From Peptostreptococcaceae bacterium (GTDB lineage Bacteria; Bacillota; Clostridia; Peptostreptococcales; Acidaminobacteraceae), in contig JAMOQG010000143.1 of the NCBI GenBank assembly GCA_027064135.1, positions 1-64,000 of the forward strand: a stretch of DNA of 64,000 nucleotides. The letters are read 5' to 3'. Below the pieces are notes generated by a model. That model saw only the letters and a program-made list of their open reading frames with translations, was not told the DNA's origin and ran no database searches. Every line of letters starts with the position of its first letter. Within the stretch, counting starts at the first letter, position 1. Positions 13,372 to 64,000 of the stretch are shown piece after piece. A program made the position numbers and the translations under genes.

Positions 13372-13657
13372 AAAAAAGACTTTTTCATCACCATAAAACA
13401 TTTAATGTCTTATAGAGATGAAAAAATCTTTTTTCACGATACCACTCTATTTATAGGTAAAATACACCTATCTCCTCGATTCGAATCTAACAATTCTAGC
13501 ACTTTTAACGGATGCACCCGACTAAGTCTACTAATTTCGACTTAACTATTCAGAGGTGATTTGCTAATATGGTTTTATTGTCAATTCACACCAACCATTG
13601 ACTCTCTTCAAATAATTGACCAATTCGCTGTCCTCTTCAAAATATTTTTTTATATTA
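13372..13657 (-). promoter_or_regulatory. T-box leader, isoleucine (AUC) specifier, upstream of ilv operon
   Basis: T-box AGAGTGGTATCGTGAA (13433-13449); terminator GATTTTTTCATC..GATGAAAAAGTCTTTTTTTT; Stem I AGAGG/CCTCT pairing brackets the specifier ATC (minus strand, 13558-13560). Confidence 0.9.
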
Positions 13658-52425: not shown

Positions 52426-54135
52426 TTAAGTTAATGATTCATTTATTTTAGGTATTTTAATTGTAACTATAGTTCCAATATTTTCTTCGCTTTCAATAAA
52501 TATACCATATTTTTCACCAAACAATAGTTTTAATCTTCTATGGATATTTGATAATCCAATATTGTTATTTTCAATACTATTATCATCTAGTTTAAGCATA
52601 ATTTCATTTAATCTTGATTTTGTTATTCCATCGCCGTTATCCTTAACAACCATAATAAGTTCATTATTTATAATTGAAATATCTAAAACTATATGTAATG
52701 ACTCTTTTCTTTTATAACTATGATTAATACAATTCTCAATAATTGGTTGCAAAATCAATTTAGGTACAATTAGTTTTTTTGAATCCTCTTCAATATTCAT
52801 TTCATAAGTAAGCCGATCATTATATCTAAATTTCTGTATAGTCAAATAATTATTTAAATAACTAATATCCTGTTCTAATTTAATTGTTTTATTTTCATAA
52901 TCAATACTATATCTTAAAATATTTGCAAATTTTATTATCATTTCTGTAGCTTTTTCTTTATCAATTGCAATCATATATTTTAATGTTTCTAAAGTATTAA
53001 AAATAAAATGTGGATTAAACTGCGATTCTAATTGTTTTATTTCTGCAATCTGATTTCTATTTGTCAATTCTAAATTTTTATTAATTAATAATTCAAGTCT
53101 ATTTAACATTTTATTAAAATGTTTACCAATTAATTCAAATTCATCACCACTTTTAATATCTAAAAATGCATTTAAATTTCCATCTTGAACTTGATTTATT
53201 GAATTAATTAACAACTCAATAGATTTTGTTTTCTTTTTAGCAATATAATCCGCCATTATAATTGTAATAATAAATAAACCTAGCATTGTAATAAATGCAA
53301 ATAAAATTGTTGTAGCTAATAAATCATTAATGGAATTAAGTTCAGATAAAGTATAAATTATAATTGTGCCATTAAAAAGATTAGATACATTGTAATAATA
53401 TATTTTATCATTAAATTCAATTGTAGATTTAACATTATTAAATTTAGATTTCAATGAAAATTTTCCGATATCATCTAAAAATACATTATTAGTTGCTAAT
53501 ATAGCATTATTATATTTATCAGTAATAACTAACGTTTCAACATCAGTATTTAAAATTTCCTTTTTTAATTCACTCTCAAGAATATCAAATACTAAATAAC
53601 CTTTAATTTCACCATTTATCATTATTGCTTTACCAATAGAATATATTGTTCTTTTTGTTAAATCAATTTGAATTTTATTATTCATATATACAATATTCTT
53701 CGGATTATTCTTAAGCTGCTTAAACAAACCTGAAATGAAAATTTCATAGCTGTTATATGGAGAATCAACATAATTACTTGTTAATAAAGTGTCTCCTTTA
53801 GTATCTACAATATAAAAAACACTTTTTAGTTTTGTACTATTAATAAATTTATACATTTCATCATACACTTCCGATTGATTTTTGCCGGTTAAAAAATATT
53901 TAGAAATTGTTTGGTCTTTTTCAAAATCATAAATTTTATCTTCATAGGCTTTAATTCCATTAAATAAAATCGTATTAGTAAATTCATTATATTTTTTATT
54001 ATTAACAGTCACAATATGCTTAGAATAAATTTGCAAAAAGGCATAAAACAAAATTACAATTATTATAATAAAACTTATTCCATAAAGTATTAACATTTTT
54101 TTTAGATCATCTTTGTAATAATGGTTATATTTCAT
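52426..54135 (-). CDS. YesM-type sensor histidine kinase
   Basis: Two TMs, HAMP, QFNPHFIFNTLETLKYM, HATPase. Confidence 0.93.
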   Translation of the reverse strand: MKYNHYYKDDLKKMLILYGISFIIIIVILFYAFLQIYSKHIVTVNNKKYNEFTNTILFNGIKAYEDKIYDFEKDQTISKYFLTGKNQSEVYDEMYKFINSTKLKSVFYIVDTKGDTLLTSNYVDSPYNSYEIFISGLFKQLKNNPKNIVYMNNKIQIDLTKRTIYSIGKAIMINGEIKGYLVFDILESELKKEILNTDVETLVITDKYNNAILATNNVFLDDIGKFSLKSKFNNVKSTIEFNDKIYYYNVSNLFNGTIIIYTLSELNSINDLLATTILFAFITMLGLFIITIIMADYIAKKKTKSIELLINSINQVQDGNLNAFLDIKSGDEFELIGKHFNKMLNRLELLINKNLELTNRNQIAEIKQLESQFNPHFIFNTLETLKYMIAIDKEKATEMIIKFANILRYSIDYENKTIKLEQDISYLNNYLTIQKFRYNDRLTYEMNIEEDSKKLIVPKLILQPIIENCINHSYKRKESLHIVLDISIINNELIMVVKDNGDGITKSRLNEIMLKLDDNSIENNNIGLSNIHRRLKLLFGEKYGIFIESEENIGTIVTIKIPKINESLT

Positions 54136-54145
54136 TTTTTCACCT

Positions 54146-55159
54146 TTATCTATTATAATTAATTTGATTAAAAAGCTTTTTATATTTTGCTATTATTTCA
54201 TCTTTATGTATTGAAACATAATTATGATCATCTTCTTCTAAAACTATATCTTCATATGGCACTAAATTTGAAGCTTGCATAACATCATCTCTAGCCGATC
54301 TTCTATTTAATTCAGTTGCAATAAAAGTCTGAATTTCTTTGCTTGTTACAAAATCAATGAACATTGCCGCTTCATCATATTTATCAGTTCCTTTGATTAT
54401 TGAAACACCATCTGGTCTAAAAATTGTACCTTCTATAGGATAAACAATTTTAATTGGTGCTCCATCATCTAGAAATTTTGCTGCTGGTTCTTCGAAAGTT
54501 AAACCCACAATATACTTTCCTTCAACAACTCCATTATATACGGATGATGAGCTTTCTAATAAATTATTATCTAAATTAATAATTAATTCATAAATATAAT
54601 TCCATCCTTCATAAATGTCACCATTTCCCATTGCACTAAGTTGATTAAGTAATTGTTCAAAAGATGATGATGATTTTGAAGGATCAGCATATGCAATTTT
54701 ACCTTTTAACTTTTTATTTAATAAATCCTTATATCCTTCGATTTTAATATTGCCTATCAAATTTGAATTTATCATAATAACACTTGGCATCATAGTAAAT
54801 CTTGTAATATAACCATCTTCATTTTTATAAATAGCATGATCTTCATTTTTTGAATAATATTTTTCAAAAAGTTCTTTATCGCTTTCAATAGTTGTTAAAG
54901 AACCACCCCATAATACATCGCAGACAGGATTATCTTTTTCAGAATCTATTCGATTTAATAACTCACCAGTTCCAGAAACTACTACTTCAACAACAATACC
55001 AGTTTCATTTTCAAATTCTCCTATAATAGGATCAATAAATTCTAATGGATGCGGAGAATAAATTACTAAAACTTCGTTTTCAGCGATTGTTTCTTTATTT
55101 TGACAACCATTTAAAATAATTATTAACAATATTAAAAAAATAAAAATTATTTTTTTCAT
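54146..55159 (-). CDS. Periplasmic-type substrate-binding lipoprotein (PgtC/AfuA-like)
   Basis: Lipobox ILNGCQ; LVIYSPHPLEFIDPIIGEFENETGIVVEVV..GTGELLNRI; in operon with HK/RR. Confidence 0.85.
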   Translation of the reverse strand: MKKIIFIFLILLIIILNGCQNKETIAENEVLVIYSPHPLEFIDPIIGEFENETGIVVEVVVSGTGELLNRIDSEKDNPVCDVLWGGSLTTIESDKELFEKYYSKNEDHAIYKNEDGYITRFTMMPSVIMINSNLIGNIKIEGYKDLLNKKLKGKIAYADPSKSSSSFEQLLNQLSAMGNGDIYEGWNYIYELIINLDNNLLESSSSVYNGVVEGKYIVGLTFEEPAAKFLDDGAPIKIVYPIEGTIFRPDGVSIIKGTDKYDEAAMFIDFVTSKEIQTFIATELNRRSARDDVMQASNLVPYEDIVLEEDDHNYVSIHKDEIIAKYKKLFNQINYNR

Positions 55160-55872
55160 TAGTCCTCCAAATTAAACTGTTTTTCAGATACAGATATAAC
55201 CGATTCTCTATTTGCAAAATTACTTACAACTTGTTTTAAATTCCTTATTTTACCAGTATACATTATAAATACACAAACCTTTATTTTTTCTGTGCTTTTT
55301 TCTAAATATTTAATATCTCTTATTTGTAATTTATTTTTTCTAAAATACTCCACTGAATCTTCAATAAAATTAGGATTATCTCCCTCATATGAAACTTCAA
55401 TTCTACTTTTAAACTTTCTATTTTTTGCAATAATTTCCAATCTTTTAAGTACATGCATAATAAATATTACCATTATTGCAGCCACTATTGATATTTCATA
55501 ATATCCAAGTCCAACTGCAATACCAATACATGCAACTACCCACAAAGTTGTTGCAGTAGTAAGACCTTTAATCGCTCCTTTATCAACCATGATTGTACCA
55601 GCACCTAAAAATCCTACACCAGTTACAACTTGAGCTACAACTCTTCCAATATCAGCTTTTAAAGCATTAGCTAAGTTCGGATTACTATTAATTAATATAA
55701 TTGTATCATGAATCATTTGTACCTGAATTAATCCAACAACAGTAGCTCCAACACAAACTAAAATGTGTGTACTAAAACCAGCTGGTCTATTTTTTATTTC
55801 TCTTTCGTATCCAATGAATCCGCCAATTATAATTGCTAATCCAATTCTAATAAAAATTTCAACTACTTCCAT
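55159..55872 (-). CDS. MgtC/SapB family protein
   Basis: GGFIGYEREIKNRPAGFSTHILVCVGA, QVVTGVGFLGAGTIM, GLTTATTLWVVACIG. Confidence 0.95.
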   Translation of the reverse strand: MEVVEIFIRIGLAIIIGGFIGYEREIKNRPAGFSTHILVCVGATVVGLIQVQMIHDTIILINSNPNLANALKADIGRVVAQVVTGVGFLGAGTIMVDKGAIKGLTTATTLWVVACIGIAVGLGYYEISIVAAIMVIFIMHVLKRLEIIAKNRKFKSRIEVSYEGDNPNFIEDSVEYFRKNKLQIRDIKYLEKSTEKIKVCVFIMYTGKIRNLKQVVSNFANRESVISVSEKQFNLED

Positions 55873-55956
55873 TTAAATCATCTTCCAATAATAAATACAC
55901 ATTAGATTTTGTAATATTGTTTCTGATAGTCTAATAGCGTAACTAGTTAACTCCAT
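55873..55956 (-). CDS. Candidate 27-aa leader/small protein upstream of mgtC
   Basis: SD AGAGAGGTGAT then ATG; MELTSYAIRLSETILQNLMCIYYWKMI*; stop TAA immediately followed in frame by the mgtC ATG. Confidence 0.55.
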   Translation of the reverse strand: MELTSYAIRLSETILQNLMCIYYWKMI

Positions 55957-56219
55957 ACTATCACCTCTCTATAAGTCTTCTTCTGTAGCACCTATACCCG
56001 GTTTATTTGACTTTATCACATAAGCATTTTATTCTTTGATTAATTATTTGTAAGAAATATATATTTCTTTCCATTTTTTTTAATTTATTAATACTTTCAA
56101 AGTGAATAGTAAAAAAAAGCAAATAAACATAATCCATCACTATATAAGTAAATTTCATCTGCTATCCGCTCTCAATAAGTTATTCAATTCTTCATAACTG
56201 AAACGATGTTAAAATAATA

Positions 56220-57281
56220 TTATAACAGATGTAATGAAGACTCATCAAATCCAATACTCATTTCTTGATTTAATTCATATTCAATTTTACCAAATGGATT
56301 AGATTGACTTATTTGAATTACTTTTCCATCCCAATTAACTTCATATTCATGGTTTTCACCCATAAAAATACTTTTTGTCACAACAGTTTTATAACTTTCT
56401 TTACCAATTATAATACTTTCAGGTCTTATAATTAATCCTACATTATCTCCAACCGAATATTTTCTATCACTTTTAACATTATATGTAATTCCTTTAATAT
56501 CAATTACATAACCTTCTTCAGTTTTAGATTGAATAGTACCGTTAATATCATTTGCTCTTCCAATAAAATTAGCTACAAAACTATTAGCCGGTCTTTGATA
56601 TATTTCTTTTGGAGATCCAACTTGCTGAATAACCCCATCTTTCATAATTACTACCCTGTCAGATAATCCCATTGCTTCCGATTGATCATGTGTTACATAA
56701 AGTGATGTAATACCAACTTCTTTTTGTAATTTTCTAATTTCATCCCTCATATGAATTCTTAATTTAGCATCAAGATTAGAAAGCGGCTCATCAAATAATA
56801 AAACTCCCGGCTCCATAACTAAGGCTCTTGCTAATGATACTCTTTGCTGTTGTCCCCCTGACATTTGAGAAGGAACTCTATATGCAAAATCATTCATTTT
56901 CATTAAATCCAATATTTTTTGAACTCTTTCAGTAATTTCTTTTTTTGGTAATTTTTGTAATTTTAAGCCATATGCAATATTATCATATACATTTAAATGA
57001 GGAAATAATGCATAATTTTGAAATACTAATGCAGTATCCCTTTTATCAGGCGTTAATTTAGCAACATTTTCTTCACCAATTAAAATTTTCCCTTCAGTTA
57101 ATGTTTCAAAACCTGCAACCATTCTTAAAAGTGTAGTTTTACCACACCCTGATGGTCCTAATAAAGTAACAAACTCACCAGGTTGAACTTCTAAATTCAC
57201 ATTGTTTACAGCTACAACATTTTTATCATTGTTTATTACAAATATTTTAGTCATATCTTTAATTGAAATACCTTTTTTCAT
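56220..57281 (-). CDS. ABC importer ATP-binding protein (PotA/FbpC-like)
   Basis: GPSGCGKTTLLRMVAGFE, MSGGQQQRVSLARAL, C-terminal TOBE. Confidence 0.93.
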   Translation of the reverse strand: MKKGISIKDMTKIFVINNDKNVVAVNNVNLEVQPGEFVTLLGPSGCGKTTLLRMVAGFETLTEGKILIGEENVAKLTPDKRDTALVFQNYALFPHLNVYDNIAYGLKLQKLPKKEITERVQKILDLMKMNDFAYRVPSQMSGGQQQRVSLARALVMEPGVLLFDEPLSNLDAKLRIHMRDEIRKLQKEVGITSLYVTHDQSEAMGLSDRVVIMKDGVIQQVGSPKEIYQRPANSFVANFIGRANDINGTIQSKTEEGYVIDIKGITYNVKSDRKYSVGDNVGLIIRPESIIIGKESYKTVVTKSIFMGENHEYEVNWDGKVIQISQSNPFGKIEYELNQEMSIGFDESSLHLL

Positions 57282-57291
57282 TTTTTGCCTC

Positions 57292-58998
57292 CTAGTTATC
57301 TATTTTACCTGTACTAGTACCCATTTTTTTAAGAGCATAACTCATTATAGCAATTATTGATCCAACAATAACTATTAATATTGTTGAATAAACATAAGCA
57401 ACTCCAATTTTACCTTGATCTATTTGACTCATAGTAGTAACAGTTAATAAACTATATTTAGCAGAAACTAAAAATATTATTGTACTAACTAACGTCATAC
57501 TTCGTGCAAATGCATAAACTAACCCACTAAAAAATGCTGGCTTAATCATTGGTAAAGTCACTGAGGTAAATACTTTTTTACTATCTGCACCTAAAACACA
57601 TGCAGCTTCCTCAATAGAAGGATCAATTTGTTGCAATGCTGCCATTCCAGATCTTATACCTACTGGCATAGATCTCATAACAAATGCAATAATTAAAATG
57701 ACTCCTGTTCCAGTTAAAACAATTGGTGGTTTATTAAATGTAATAACATATCCTAAACCAACAACAGTTCCTGGGATTGCTATAGATAACATCGTCGTAA
57801 AGTCCATATACGTTCTCCCCAAAAATTTCTTTCTAACAACTAAGAAAGCAACTATCATTGATAATATACCTGTAATAGGTGTAGCAATTAATGCTAATCT
57901 AGTTGTATCATAAATTGGTTTAAATCCAATATTAAATACATATTTATAATGATCTAAAGTAAGAGAATAATCAACTCCCCATAATTTAACAAAAGATCCT
58001 ATTGGTATTAATATATACATCATTCCTACCAAAATGCTTATAAGTATTATAATAATACTAATAGGTTTAACAATTTTTTTATCATCAATCAATACTCTAG
58101 CTCTTGAAACTTTTCCTGTCACTGTAATATAAGATTTTTTTCCAATATAATATTTTTGCAATAAGAATGCAAATACAGAAATTAACAATAACATTATAGC
58201 TAATGCTGTTGCTCCACTCATATTTAAGCTTCCAATACCTTGCATATATATTTGAACAGCCATTGTAGTATAATTACCACCTATAACCATTGGATTTCCA
58301 AAATCAGCTACAGATTGAATAAATACTAAAAGTCCAGCATTTGCAATTCCCGGTACCATTAAAGGCAATGTTACAGTTGAAAACACTTGATATCTTGATG
58401 CTCCAAGATCTCTTGCAGCTTCTTCAACAGAAGGATCAATTTCTTGAAGTAAACCTACCATCACAAGATATGCTACTGGAAAAAAAGTTAATACTTGAAC
58501 TAATACAAGTCCTCTAAATCCATAAATTTCAGCATTTTCAAATCCAAATATTCCTCTTGATATTAAACCAATTCTACCAAATAACAATATTGCAGATAAA
58601 CCTACCACAAATGGTGGAGAAATAATTGGCAATATTGCAATAGCATTTAACATTTTTTTATTTGCCATTTTTAAATATGCAGATGCATATGCAAATAAAA
58701 ATCCAATTATTGTTGAAATTATACTTACAACAATTCCTAATTTTAATGTATTAAAAATAATTTCTTTATTATATGTCAATCTAAATATTTCTGTATAATG
58801 ATGCAATGATAAATTTCCTTCATAAAGGAAACTTTCTTTTAAAATGTTTATTAATGGTAAAACAATGAACATAGTAATTGCAAGTAATATTGTAAGTATT
58901 GTAATAAATAATACCGGATCATGTGTAACATTTATCATATTTGCAATTTCTGATTTCATTTTTAACGATTTATTGCTTTGTTTCTTTTTTTCAGCCAT
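57292..58998 (-). CDS. ABC importer permease, fused two-domain (FbpB-like)
   Basis: Two BPD permease EAA-type loops (EEAARDLGASRYQVFSTVTLPLM; EEAACVLGADSKKVFTSVTLPMI). Confidence 0.93.
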   Translation of the reverse strand: MAEKKKQSNKSLKMKSEIANMINVTHDPVLFITILTILLAITMFIVLPLINILKESFLYEGNLSLHHYTEIFRLTYNKEIIFNTLKLGIVVSIISTIIGFLFAYASAYLKMANKKMLNAIAILPIISPPFVVGLSAILLFGRIGLISRGIFGFENAEIYGFRGLVLVQVLTFFPVAYLVMVGLLQEIDPSVEEAARDLGASRYQVFSTVTLPLMVPGIANAGLLVFIQSVADFGNPMVIGGNYTTMAVQIYMQGIGSLNMSGATALAIMLLLISVFAFLLQKYYIGKKSYITVTGKVSRARVLIDDKKIVKPISIIIILISILVGMMYILIPIGSFVKLWGVDYSLTLDHYKYVFNIGFKPIYDTTRLALIATPITGILSMIVAFLVVRKKFLGRTYMDFTTMLSIAIPGTVVGLGYVITFNKPPIVLTGTGVILIIAFVMRSMPVGIRSGMAALQQIDPSIEEAACVLGADSKKVFTSVTLPMIKPAFFSGLVYAFARSMTLVSTIIFLVSAKYSLLTVTTMSQIDQGKIGVAYVYSTILIVIVGSIIAIMSYALKKMGTSTGKIDN

Positions 58999-59029
58999 CT
59001 TTTACTCCTCTCATAATATAATTATTGTA

Positions 59030-59055
59030 AAAGCACCCATTTAGGATGCTTTTAT
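59030..59055 (-). terminator. Hairpin between SBP and permease genes
   Basis: AAAAGCATCC-taaat-GGgTGCTTTTA. Confidence 0.65.
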
Positions 59056-59064
59056 ATATTTTCT

Positions 59065-60153
59065 CTATTCTGTTGGAGGAGTTGTTTTTGTAAGCTCCAT
59101 AAATTTTTCTAAAAATTCGCTTCTATTGTCAGCAGCCCATTTAAAATCATAATCAATTAATTTAGTATCTTTAATACTTAAAGCTTGCTCTGGTGGTACT
59201 GCATCAGGATTAGTCAAGAATTGGAATGAACCAACTGTTTTACCAAGTTCTTGAGCTTCTTTAGTTAAACACCAATCAATAAACATTTTTGCAGCTTCTT
59301 GATCTGGACCATCTTTAATAATTGCAGCAGCACCTATTTCATAACCAGTTCCGCCTTCTGGAGCAGTGAAAATTAAATCTTTATATCCTTCTTCTTGATA
59401 TTTAATAGCATCATGAATAAATCCAATTGCTATTGGAGCTTCGCCCATTCCACACATTCTACCAGGCGCACTACCTGATTTAGTATATTGACGAACTTGA
59501 CCATTAAATTTTTGCATATATTCAAATCCTGCATCTTCGCCTTTTATTTGTAAAATTGTAGCTAATAAATTATAAGCAGTACTTGATGAACCTGGGTGAG
59601 CTACAACAATATTTCCTTTAAATTCAGGTTTTAATAAATCATCAAATGTTTTAGGTAATTCATAACCATTATCATCTAACCATTTTTTATTTCCTTCAAT
59701 TCCTAAATATCCAACATATATTCCAGTCCAAGCTCCATTAGGATCTTTTAACTGTGGTAAAATATTTGCTGCATTTGGAGAAATATAATGTTCTAATAAT
59801 CCTTCGTTTTCAGCAGCCATAAAAGTTAAAGCTCCACCACCATACCAAACACTTGCAGATGGATTTTCTTTTTCAGCTTTAATTCTTGAAAAAATTTCTC
59901 CACCACTCATACGAACCATTTGAGTTTTTACGCCTGTAGCTTTTTCAAATTCTTTTACAGCTAATAATGCGTGATCTTCCATTAGTCCAGCATAAATTGT
60001 TAATTCTAAATCTTTCTTTTCAGGTGCAGGAGCTTCTGTTTTTTCTTCAGCTTTTGCAGCTGGTTCTTCAGTTGCTTTTGGTGCACATCCTACAACGGAA
60101 AAAACTAATACTATTACTAACATTAACATTAACATTTTTTTCATTAAATACAT
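59065..60153 (-). CDS. ABC substrate-binding lipoprotein (FbpA/AfuA-like)
   Basis: Lipobox VVGCAP; LTIYAGLMEDHALLAVKEFEKATGVKTQMVRMSGGEIFSRIKAEKENP. Confidence 0.88.
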   Translation of the reverse strand: MYLMKKMLMLMLVIVLVFSVVGCAPKATEEPAAKAEEKTEAPAPEKKDLELTIYAGLMEDHALLAVKEFEKATGVKTQMVRMSGGEIFSRIKAEKENPSASVWYGGGALTFMAAENEGLLEHYISPNAANILPQLKDPNGAWTGIYVGYLGIEGNKKWLDDNGYELPKTFDDLLKPEFKGNIVVAHPGSSSTAYNLLATILQIKGEDAGFEYMQKFNGQVRQYTKSGSAPGRMCGMGEAPIAIGFIHDAIKYQEEGYKDLIFTAPEGGTGYEIGAAAIIKDGPDQEAAKMFIDWCLTKEAQELGKTVGSFQFLTNPDAVPPEQALSIKDTKLIDYDFKWAADNRSEFLEKFMELTKTTPPTE

Positions 60154-60291: not shown

Positions 60292-61842
60292 CTATTTTTT
60301 ATTAATTATTTTCTTTTCAAATATAATAAGTACAATTTTAGTTATTGCAAACATCAAAAATGTCAATAATGACATTGAAAACCAAAATCCAAATGAACTA
60401 AAGAAATTTATATTAATTGGATTTATTGTATCTATTGAATGAAATTTACTTTGGAATATATTAATTCCCAATAATCCTGTTACAAAAGTTGGAACTAATA
60501 ACCATTTATTTAAGTTTTCAATCATTTCAAGTGACTTTTGAGATTGATCAGAATTTGAAAGTCTAGCATATTCATGAAGTGATTCCATCTCTTTATTTAA
60601 ATCTTCTATTAGTAATAATATGTCAGATTTGCTAAATAGTGTATTATATAATTCTATTCCTTGTTCTTGAGCAGAAACTTGTCTAAAAAACATTCTATTT
60701 GAGAATTGAAGATAATTTTGATATAAATTTAAAATACGTTTAGAATCTTTTTCATCAAGTCTAGAAATTCTTGATATTTCATCAGAAAAATTTAATAAAC
60801 TGACTCTTTGTGCTAATACTAATGCAACCATTTCAAAATATAATGTTTCCATATGGTTATTTAATGCATCCATTTGATTGTCTTCTTTTAAAAGCACAAA
60901 TGAGTATCTACTAATTCCAAACACACTTTTTTTATCAATCCATCTTTTATATGTAGATTCTTTTAAAGATTTATTTAGCATTTTTTTATTTTGACATTTT
61001 AATTTTCCTGAATCTATAAATATAAATTTATAAAGATATTCATCATTATTAATAACTTCATCAAGATCAGAAACATTTTCATATTTATTAAAATAACCTA
61101 ATTCATTATTTACACTCATAACAAACATTCTATGATCAATTAAAGGAAGTATTTCTATTTTGCTGCCAAAGCTACCAAATCCTAAAATATCAGTAATAAT
61201 ATTCGAAAGTTTAATTGTATCTTTACTATATTTTTCACCAAATTCAAAATCTTCTTTTGTATTTTTACCATTTAATCCTGTGATTTCAATATACTCCGGT
61301 ATTTCACCAGCTTCTTTTGCTTCAATAAATGGTAAATATACATTTCTACCAAGTGCATTTATTTTTAAAATATCATCTTTATCATATTCTTCATTATAAT
61401 TATCTAAAAAGAAACTTAATACTCCTACACCAGTTTCAAATATTTTTAATCCTATTTTCTTTATATCAAGGATATATTCTTTATCAAATGTTTTAATATG
61501 ATATTTAGGATCTTCATTTATTTTATAATTATAATTAAGAATTATTTCATCAGATAAAGATTCCGGATCATCTTTATTAAAATATGTAAATATAGCATTT
61601 CTTACACTTTCATAAAAATAAAGTTTTGTATTATAACTTAAATCAATTTTCTTTTCATCATAACTTGAAAATAAATCAGAATATGTTTCAAGCATCCATT
61701 CTCCATTTTCTTTAATTATACTATTTACTAAATCAAGATCTGTTTTCTTTTTAAATGAATAATACGTAACTGCATTTTCTTTAATATTTTCAATTTTAAA
61801 AGGAAATATAAAAATATGTTTACTTCTTAATTCTTTTTCCAT
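60292..61842 (-). CDS. CorA-like divalent cation channel/transporter family membrane protein (divergent)
   Basis: Long cytosolic domain with helix-rich C-terminal half, WLLVPTFVTGLLGINIF (degenerate GMN as GIN) and a second C-terminal TM. Confidence 0.6.
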   Translation of the reverse strand: MEKELRSKHIFIFPFKIENIKENAVTYYSFKKKTDLDLVNSIIKENGEWMLETYSDLFSSYDEKKIDLSYNTKLYFYESVRNAIFTYFNKDDPESLSDEIILNYNYKINEDPKYHIKTFDKEYILDIKKIGLKIFETGVGVLSFFLDNYNEEYDKDDILKINALGRNVYLPFIEAKEAGEIPEYIEITGLNGKNTKEDFEFGEKYSKDTIKLSNIITDILGFGSFGSKIEILPLIDHRMFVMSVNNELGYFNKYENVSDLDEVINNDEYLYKFIFIDSGKLKCQNKKMLNKSLKESTYKRWIDKKSVFGISRYSFVLLKEDNQMDALNNHMETLYFEMVALVLAQRVSLLNFSDEISRISRLDEKDSKRILNLYQNYLQFSNRMFFRQVSAQEQGIELYNTLFSKSDILLLIEDLNKEMESLHEYARLSNSDQSQKSLEMIENLNKWLLVPTFVTGLLGINIFQSKFHSIDTINPININFFSSFGFWFSMSLLTFLMFAITKIVLIIFEKKIINKK

Positions 61843-62963
61843 AAAATCATCTCCACTTTCTTCTGAAGTTCATTAATATCTCCTGTAAATATTATTACAT
61901 TTATATTCATTTCTTCTGCTCTTTTTAAATCATCTTTAAATTCAGGTTCTTCAGTAGTAATAATTACTCTTAAAGCGCTATCTCCTCCAATTTTTTGACT
62001 ATATACTTCTATTTCATTAAAGGCTTCTTTACCATATCTTTTAGTATCTTTACATGATATGCACATTAATAATTGATCTTTAATTGCAAGTACATCTAAT
62101 TCATTTCGTACATTACTATTGTCATCCCATAAGAACTCAACACTAGTTTTAATATCATTAAATATTTTCATTTCTTTTAATGTTCTAAAAATTAGTGCTT
62201 CTAACCAAGTTCCTGGCTTTTTCATAAGTTCTTTCAATCCAATATCATGATAATTAATAAATATTTTATTTCTAATAATTTTATAATCTAAATATTTCTT
62301 TTCTTTTAATAAATTAATTAAATCCATCAAAATATATTCTTCATAATCATTAATTTTATTTTTTAATATAGTTGAAATATTTGGAGTTTTTTTATCATTT
62401 ATAAAAATATTATTTCTTTTAAATACATTTTTATTAATTTTTTTAAAATTTCCATAGTTTTTTATTATCCAATTAAGAAATTCATTCACTGCATCTGAAT
62501 TATAAATCGATGATTGATCAATTGCTATTGAACCTCCAAAACTATTTATTAAATCTTTAATGTTTAAATCTATTTTTTTAATATCATGCTCAATTATTTG
62601 ATCATTACTAAATTCATACATCAGTCCTTTTTTCTCAGAAATTAATAATCTTTTAATATCCATTTCTTTTGCATTATCAAAAAGAATAAATTTATTTAAA
62701 TTTGCTTCTCCATCAAAGTAAGCAAATGATTCTCCGTCATATTTTTTAATTATGTTTTTAATATCGCTATAATGCTTAATTACTCTATCTTCTATTACAA
62801 TATCTTTAAATTCACTTTCAATATATTCCTTAAAATTATAAAAATCTTCTAAATTACTTTTCCCTTTTTCTCTAAGCATAATAACTTTATCAATTTTATA
62901 GAAAGAAATAGGAATAACAATAGGTAAATAATAGTCATCGTAAAAATAAAACAAATTCTTCAT
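61827..62963 (-). CDS. DUF1887 / Card1-Can2-like protein: CARF-like N-terminus + PD-(D/E)xK nuclease domain
   Basis: GTWLEALIFRTLKEM...NELDVLAIKDQLLMCISCKDTKRYGKEAFNEIEVYSQKIGGDSALRVIITTEE is a DUF1887-type nuclease signature; length 378 aa. Confidence 0.72.
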   Translation of the reverse strand: MKNLFYFYDDYYLPIVIPISFYKIDKVIMLREKGKSNLEDFYNFKEYIESEFKDIVIEDRVIKHYSDIKNIIKKYDGESFAYFDGEANLNKFILFDNAKEMDIKRLLISEKKGLMYEFSNDQIIEHDIKKIDLNIKDLINSFGGSIAIDQSSIYNSDAVNEFLNWIIKNYGNFKKINKNVFKRNNIFINDKKTPNISTILKNKINDYEEYILMDLINLLKEKKYLDYKIIRNKIFINYHDIGLKELMKKPGTWLEALIFRTLKEMKIFNDIKTSVEFLWDDNSNVRNELDVLAIKDQLLMCISCKDTKRYGKEAFNEIEVYSQKIGGDSALRVIITTEEPEFKDDLKRAEEMNINVIIFTGDINELQKKVEMILWKKN

Positions 62964-63003
62964 ATCAGCTCCCTTTAAACTTATTTATTTTATTTTATTG
63001 TAC

Positions 63004-63276: not shown

Positions 63277-64000
63277 ATGATTAGAAAAAAATATTCAAAA
63301 TATATTGCTAAATTTAACGAAATTTTAACTATACGTGATTTAACTAAAAATACTGTTATTAATTACACATCTTTTCTTATTCAATATTTAACTTGGGTTG
63401 ATTCCGAACTTTCTAAACCACTTGAAGATGTATCTTATGAGGAATTAAGAATTTATATTTTACATTTAAAAAATATTAGAAAACTAAGTGCTAGTACTAT
63501 TAATGCTCATATTTCTCAATTAAGGTTTTTATATATTTATATTTTAATGAAACCTTTTGATAAATATCAAGTTCCTTTTATGAAAACTATTAAAAAAATA
63601 CCTACAATTTATTCTAAAGAAATCATTTTTCAATTTATTGATTCTTTGGAAAATATAAGACATAAGGCTTATGCTGCACTTCTTTATTCCTCTGGTATTC
63701 GTGTTTCTGAACTTCAGTATCTTAAATATGAAGATGTCAGTCGAAAAAATATGTTACTCTATATTAGAAAAACTAAATCAAGAACTGATCGTTATGCTAT
63801 TTTGTCTAAAAAGGCTTTAACTATTTTAACTCAGTATTGGTTTGCTGCTGGTAAGCCAAAGGAGTTTTTATTTCCTGGATACCATGATAGAACTAAGCCG
63901 GTCTCTAAATTCACTATTAACCGTGCTATTAATGATCATGCTAAAGTTTTTAACATTCATTTAACTCCCCATTTATTTCGCCATCACTTCGGATGTCATA
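63277..64000 (+). CDS. Tyrosine recombinase/integrase, truncated by window end
   Basis: SD AAGGAGG, ATG; my translation gives MIRKKYSKYIAKFNEILTIRDLTKNTVINY..., catalytic SSGIRVSELQYL, KTKSR, HLFRHHFGCH; not in the supplied ORF track because no stop is reached. Confidence 0.85.
   Translation, partial: MIRKKYSKYIAKFNEILTIRDLTKNTVINYTSFLIQYLTWVDSELSKPLEDVSYEELRIYILHLKNIRKLSASTINAHISQLRFLYIYILMKPFDKYQVPFMKTIKKIPTIYSKEIIFQFIDSLENIRHKAYAALLYSSGIRVSELQYLKYEDVSRKNMLLYIRKTKSRTDRYAILSKKALTILTQYWFAAGKPKEFLFPGYHDRTKPVSKFTINRAINDHAKVFNIHLTPHLFRHHFGCH

Follow-up and report, generated by a model that had tools for sequence, protein, structure and literature searches.

A free-standing, overlapping pair of CARF nuclease and CRISPR-type CorA genes with altered sensor sites in a Peptostreptococcaceae bacterium

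Orphan DUF1887 nucleases, CorA proteins of the CRISPR type and the co-occurrence of the two in type III-B loci are already known. A 2014 study noted that CARF genes of the DUF1887 family need not be linked to CRISPR (PMC4012209). Within this family, Can2 shares with Can1 a set of residues that hold cA4 (S19, T42, K99 and Y118 of SthCan2), while the orphan VC1899 of Vibrio cholerae, which carries D, D, R and V at these four positions, is not regulated by cA4 (PMC7969007). On the membrane side, CorA-1 of B. fragilis belongs to a Cmr system, is activated by SAM-AMP and consists of an N-terminal sensor domain followed by two C-terminal membrane helices. Two conserved pairs in it, R152-R153 and D219-D220, are required for immunity; this agrees with binding of SAM-AMP, although the authors do not exclude a structural effect of their exchange (PMC10600005). 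A DHH phosphodiesterase accompanying corA is likewise known (PMC10600005).

In this study, we analyzed positions 1-64,000 of contig JAMOQG010000143.1 from a Peptostreptococcaceae bacterium (the window, to whose coordinates all positions refer unless marked as contig), in which genes for a DUF1887-type nuclease and a CorA-like membrane protein overlap. What is new is the free-standing nuclease-corA pair with both sensor sites altered, of which we observed one instance and for which no report was found in the open-licence literature.

The nuclease and its CARF domain

The nuclease gene (61827-62963, minus strand, 378 aa) and the corA-like gene (60292-61842, minus strand, 516 aa) overlap by 16 nt, as an earlier note on this DNA had described, and both frames are fully open across 2.67 kb. 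Each start codon follows a good Shine-Dalgarno-like ribosome-binding site; AGGGAG at 62969-62974 precedes the ATG of the nuclease gene, and GGAG at 61851-61854, which lies within the nuclease gene, precedes that of corA (both on the minus strand). The G+C content of the pair is 21.6%, compared with 27.2% for the window, and the two genes match one another closely (21.1 and 21.9%).

The upstream protein belongs with the CARF-PD-(D/E)xK nucleases VC1899, Can2 and Card1. Pfam Card1_endonuc (PF09002) matches residues 251-371 with an E-value of 1e-13, and the PADLOC model CARF4--CARF_PDDEXK (PDLC01881) matches residues 7-374, the full length of the protein, with 260 bits. The DUF1887 signature that had been read from the translation is borne out, with GTWLE at residues 251-255, NELD at 287-290, SCK at 303-305 and GG at 328-329. 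G251, E255, N287, E288, D290, C304 and K305 are invariant in an alignment of 24 sequences, and the nuclease domain (61851-62213, minus strand) thus retains E255, E288, D290 and K305 intact. An AlphaFold model built from the same alignment (pLDDT 91) has the CARF-nuclease fold, and its top Foldseek matches, at E-values of 5e-21 to 1e-15, are VC1899, Can2, Cdn1 and Card1, among them PDB entries 1xmx, 7bdv, 8bao and 6xl1. The protein therefore has the two-domain fold, CARF plus PD-(D/E)xK, of the cA4-activated Can2/Card1 nucleases by Pfam, PADLOC and structure comparison alike, and it shares their intact catalytic residues.

The sensor domain departs from this likeness. The loop FDGEANLNKF (residues 83-92; 62688-62717, minus strand) indeed stands where CARF proteins carry (N)xTGGTK, with N88 at the position of the lysine. 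In a profile alignment to Can2 (7bdv) combined with row comparison, D9, E32, N88 and approximately I108 of the nuclease align to S19, T42, K99 and Y118, the last correspondence being the least certain of the four. By the profile alignment, all four cA4-contact residues of Can2, which are conserved between Can1 and Can2, are missing from this CARF domain. In this respect the nuclease resembles VC1899, which is also an orphan and is its best structural match (14% identity in the Foldseek alignment); in both, three of the four contact positions are occupied by acidic or aliphatic residues. It differs from VC1899 in being paired with a CorA-type membrane protein, a pairing not reported for VC1899 in PMC7969007.

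The CorA-like protein and its putative sensor site

The 516-aa protein belongs, over its whole length, to the type III CRISPR CorA family. The PADLOC CorA model PDLC01174 matches it with 350 bits over 439 of 446 model positions, a second PADLOC model of type III CRISPR CorA does so with 330 bits, and both cover its full length; its identity to most CorA proteins linked to type III-B systems is 27-38%. The earlier note's recognition of both proteins as members of families found in type III systems was thus correct, and the type III-B (SAM-AMP) heritage of the CorA-like protein is well supported.

Structure comparison agrees with the fold, weakly. The AlphaFold model (pLDDT 87) ends in two long helices, residues 408-468 and 476-515, and its likeness to CorA is limited to a Foldseek E-value of 1e-3 at a probability of 0.99 and a low TM-score, which is expected because the N-terminal domain differs. 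The two predicted C-terminal membrane helices with GIN in place of the CorA GMN motif were confirmed by reading frame, alignment and model (residues 459-461; 60460-60468, minus strand), the motif lying between the two helices. GIN is not unusual in this family; among 53 aligned sequences, the middle residue of G-x-N is M in 28 and I in nine.

These C-terminal helices also bear on whether the protein could be an ordinary Mg2+/Co2+ transporter unrelated to CRISPR-type signalling. A profile of the 53 sequences finds solved CorA transporters through the helices (E-value 7e-8), with resemblance to CorA of Thermotoga, and transporters of the CorA family are widespread. We nevertheless regard this explanation as scarcely credible, given that the type III CorA models match the protein over its full length, that no Pfam family, CorA included, matches it, and that the CRISPR-linked family can be aligned with the whole of its N-terminal domain.

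Like B. fragilis CorA-1, then, the protein combines an N-terminal sensor domain with two C-terminal membrane helices, and it is in the sensor that the two part. R166-N167 (61342-61347, minus strand) occupies the position of the RR pair with the second R lost, and D236-H237 (61132-61137, minus strand) that of the DD pair with the second D lost. The correspondence to the B. fragilis pairs is a probable one, drawn from alignment columns, since in the 53-sequence alignment no neighbouring columns other than 166-167 and 236-237 show a conserved RR or DD, and the spacing is similar. The second R is kept in 47 of the 53 sequences and the second D in 50, while N at the former and H at the latter occur in this protein alone; the first residue of each pair is retained. 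By this alignment, the protein lacks complete RR and DD pairs at the putative SAM-AMP site. In the corA tree it sits on a long branch (1.51; median 0.64) within an unresolved, Bacillota-rich group, and its placement is poor.

Genomic surroundings and relatives

The earlier note had seen no CRISPR-Cas around the pair, and this extends to the whole draft genome (158 contigs, 97.87% complete). Profile searches with positive controls found no RAMP protein and no Cas1 in the genome, nor was Cmr2 found by a search that recovers it in a control genome (G041). Seven proteins match the Cas10 palm weakly, but every one of them carries GGDEF or GGEEF, and for this reason they were not accepted as Cas10. 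A spaced GAAAC repeat-end pattern had eight matches in the genome, compared with seven in a reversed control, and thus stayed at background, this pattern representing a single common repeat type. The 64-kb window contains no direct repeats, and no CRISPR-Cas was seen there or on the rest of the 75.7-kb contig. Among the ORFs flanking the pair, no ring nuclease and no SAM-AMP-degrading enzyme (NrN, DEDD or lyase) was recognized. The locus differs from that of B. fragilis CorA-1 in having no Cmr complex and no recognized NrN, DEDD or lyase neighbour.

Short-read assemblies often lose CRISPR loci. The organism might accordingly possess a type III-B locus that is missing from the draft, with the pair as its ordinary ancillary genes placed elsewhere. 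The assembly falls short of full completeness, and in genome G528 corA and Cmr2 lie on different contigs. We consider this very unlikely all the same, in view of the negative RAMP, Cmr2 and Cas1 searches, the changed sensor residues and the complete flanks of the pair, with transporter genes on one side and a mobile element and housekeeping genes on the other.

On the upstream side, a divergent tyrosine recombinase gene (284 aa; plus strand, from 63277 to the end of the window at 64000, ending at contig position 64131) is followed by an IS91-type Y2 transposase gene (contig 64137-65333; family match to Y2_Tnp and Zn_Tnp_IS91), past which apparently ordinary housekeeping genes continue to the end of the contig. 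The genes downstream, in the same direction, form an iron-type ABC transporter operon, to judge by their ORF translations. The stretch 52426-60153 holds this operon, a second periplasmic-binding protein, an MgtC-like protein and a sensor kinase, with no link to the pair; elsewhere in the window, a T-box leader (Rfam RF00230) lies at 13411-13649 on the minus strand. Acquisition of the pair by horizontal transfer is supported by its sporadic occurrence, its low G+C content and the adjoining mobile element. corA is absent from the other 40 of the 41 genomes of the bacterium's family, and neither viral contigs nor phage records yielded relatives (of CorA and of the nuclease, respectively).

A lack of any Cas10, Cas1 or CRISPR signal in the genome would also be expected of a decaying relic, in which the effector genes outlived the type III-B machinery and were left with neither trigger nor function, their sensor sites drifting. 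The two substitutions seen in no other CorA of the 53 speak for this, and the long branch and poor placement of corA could fit decay as well. Against it stand the open frames with their overlap and good ribosome-binding sites, the intact catalytic residues of the nuclease and domain architecture of the CorA-like protein, and the fact that the sensor-pair changes are substitutions within otherwise complete proteins; on balance we judge a relic somewhat unlikely.

Solo DUF1887 nucleases are ordinary in the order to which this bacterium belongs, since matches occur in 31 of 395 genomes (its own included), mostly without a RAMP. Leaving out the pair's own genome, 18 of 19 nuclease-bearing genomes had no RAMP gene; in the loci examined, no relative had a CorA-family neighbour, and neighbours were conserved only among close relatives. 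A second case of a nuclease beside a channel occurs on a megaplasmid of Peptoclostridium acidaminophilum (L202:3146-5122), where a solo DUF1887 CARF gene follows a co-oriented potassium-channel-family gene at a distance of 39 nt; the annotation of this stretch shows no CRISPR genes. The closest relatives of the pair's nuclease are stand-alone clostridial homologues (21-27% identity).

Among relatives of the CorA-like protein, cmr genes stand beside corA in about 70 of 80 CorA-family loci from named genomes, and most of the remaining loci end within 2 kb of corA. In three type III-B loci of Campylobacterota (L100, L103 and L138), a DUF1887-type nuclease gene, corA and cmr1-6 follow one another in the same orientation; such a nuclease also lies near corA in a fourth (L111), and the annotation of an Arcobacter plasmid (CP134857) shows a DUF1887 CARF gene, corA and cmr genes in a stretch of 17 kb. 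The pair described here shares with L100, L103 and L138 both protein families and their order and direction. It differs in having no type III-B locus and in its nuclease, those of Campylobacterota belonging to another subfamily (PDLC01891), and the CorA proteins of the three loci have normal RR and DD pairs.

In other Campylobacterota loci, a gene beside corA encodes a fusion of a CARF-PD-(D/E)xK nuclease with a DHH (NrN-type) phosphodiesterase (L099:5112-6926 and L146:8392-10266, and by HMM score and length likewise L107, L144 and L168), which suggests a joint cOA and SAM-AMP logic in one locus. The 250-aa genes upstream of corA in L119 and L171, flagged by the nuclease HMM, were rejected as DUF1887 nucleases, being DHH phosphodiesterases (PADLOC DHH_CorA). 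CorA-like genes L092-L096 were also set aside, since they lack RR and DD and form a distant clade whose branch measures 4.25 changes per column; found in a related family, at a conserved chromosomal position near apparent feoA/feoB genes, they are possibly non-CRISPR cousins of CRISPR CorA.

Given how common solo nucleases are, the two genes could be chance neighbours, a nuclease of this kind beside an independently acquired corA and no joint function. That the nuclease relatives examined lack a CorA neighbour, and that no second stand-alone pair was found among relatives or the 80 CorA loci, is in keeping with this. Against it, the genes overlap by 16 nt, the corA ribosome-binding site lies within the nuclease gene, the low G+C of the two genes matches and the gene order is the same in Campylobacterota type III-B loci; we hold it to be unlikely.

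Interpretation and significance

The earlier note had offered two readings of the pair. As a stand-alone abortive-infection system it fails the test of conservation in other genomes, because no second stand-alone pair was found; that it is a Cas10-free, two-gene immune or stress module, both of whose proteins sense a nucleotide other than cA4 or SAM-AMP made by a cellular enzyme or a phage, appears to us doubtful. The other reading, a detached type III effector pair with a new ligand, fared better in its first half, since the CorA family occurs mostly beside cmr genes and some type III-B loci have a nuclease upstream of corA. The new ligand finds some support in the altered sites, which also fit a loss of function.

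We therefore favour, at roughly even confidence, a detached type III-B effector pair, working or recently working, with changed ligand specificity. The open frames and catalytic residues favour activity, and the two changed sensor sites favour another ligand or loss; together with the lack of a detectable CRISPR system, the latter point to a different signal or a leftover. On this reading of a detached pair, the operon of a CARF nuclease and a CorA-1-type effector would represent the effector arm of a type III-B system minus its Cmr/Cas10 complex, acquired horizontally beside the IS91-type element and retained in a genome without detectable Cas10. The nuclease would cut nucleic acid when its CARF sensor is occupied, and the CorA-like protein, when its own sensor is occupied, would perturb the membrane, so that the cell is slowed or killed. 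Because both sensor sites have diverged from those that serve cA4 and SAM-AMP, the trigger would most likely be another small molecule, or have been lost. These activities, the trigger and any role in defence are predictions. Nuclease and corA may have left one type III-B locus together; they may also not share one type III source, since the nuclease is nearer to solo clostridial homologues than to CorA-linked ones, and the CorA-linked nucleases of Campylobacterota best fit a different PADLOC model. The favoured reading is further weakened in that neither a ring nuclease nor a SAM-AMP-degrading enzyme was recognized beside the pair, and by the long, poorly placed branch of corA.

CRISPR-type corA genes also occur singly, as orphans, in other Clostridia in whose genomes no Cmr2 was found; we found no report of such orphans in the open-licence literature. 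Two of them (L188:9112-10458 in G736 and L190:8747-10147 in G589) keep RR and DD and form one clade (support 100/99), the former sitting behind a cluster of protein-kinase and AAA-helicase genes. A third (L090:9874-11454 in G096) scores 402 bits against the PADLOC model, above the CorA-like protein of the pair, and has a fumarylacetoacetate-hydrolase gene on one side and an apparent two-component system on the other.

It is assumed that type III CRISPR effectors rely on Cas10 to provide their signal. A pair that is detached and has altered sensors would offer a natural test of their capacity to be re-wired to other signals, and the orphan CorA proteins that keep RR and DD in other Clostridia (L090, L188 and L190) pose the cleaner question of who makes the ligand.
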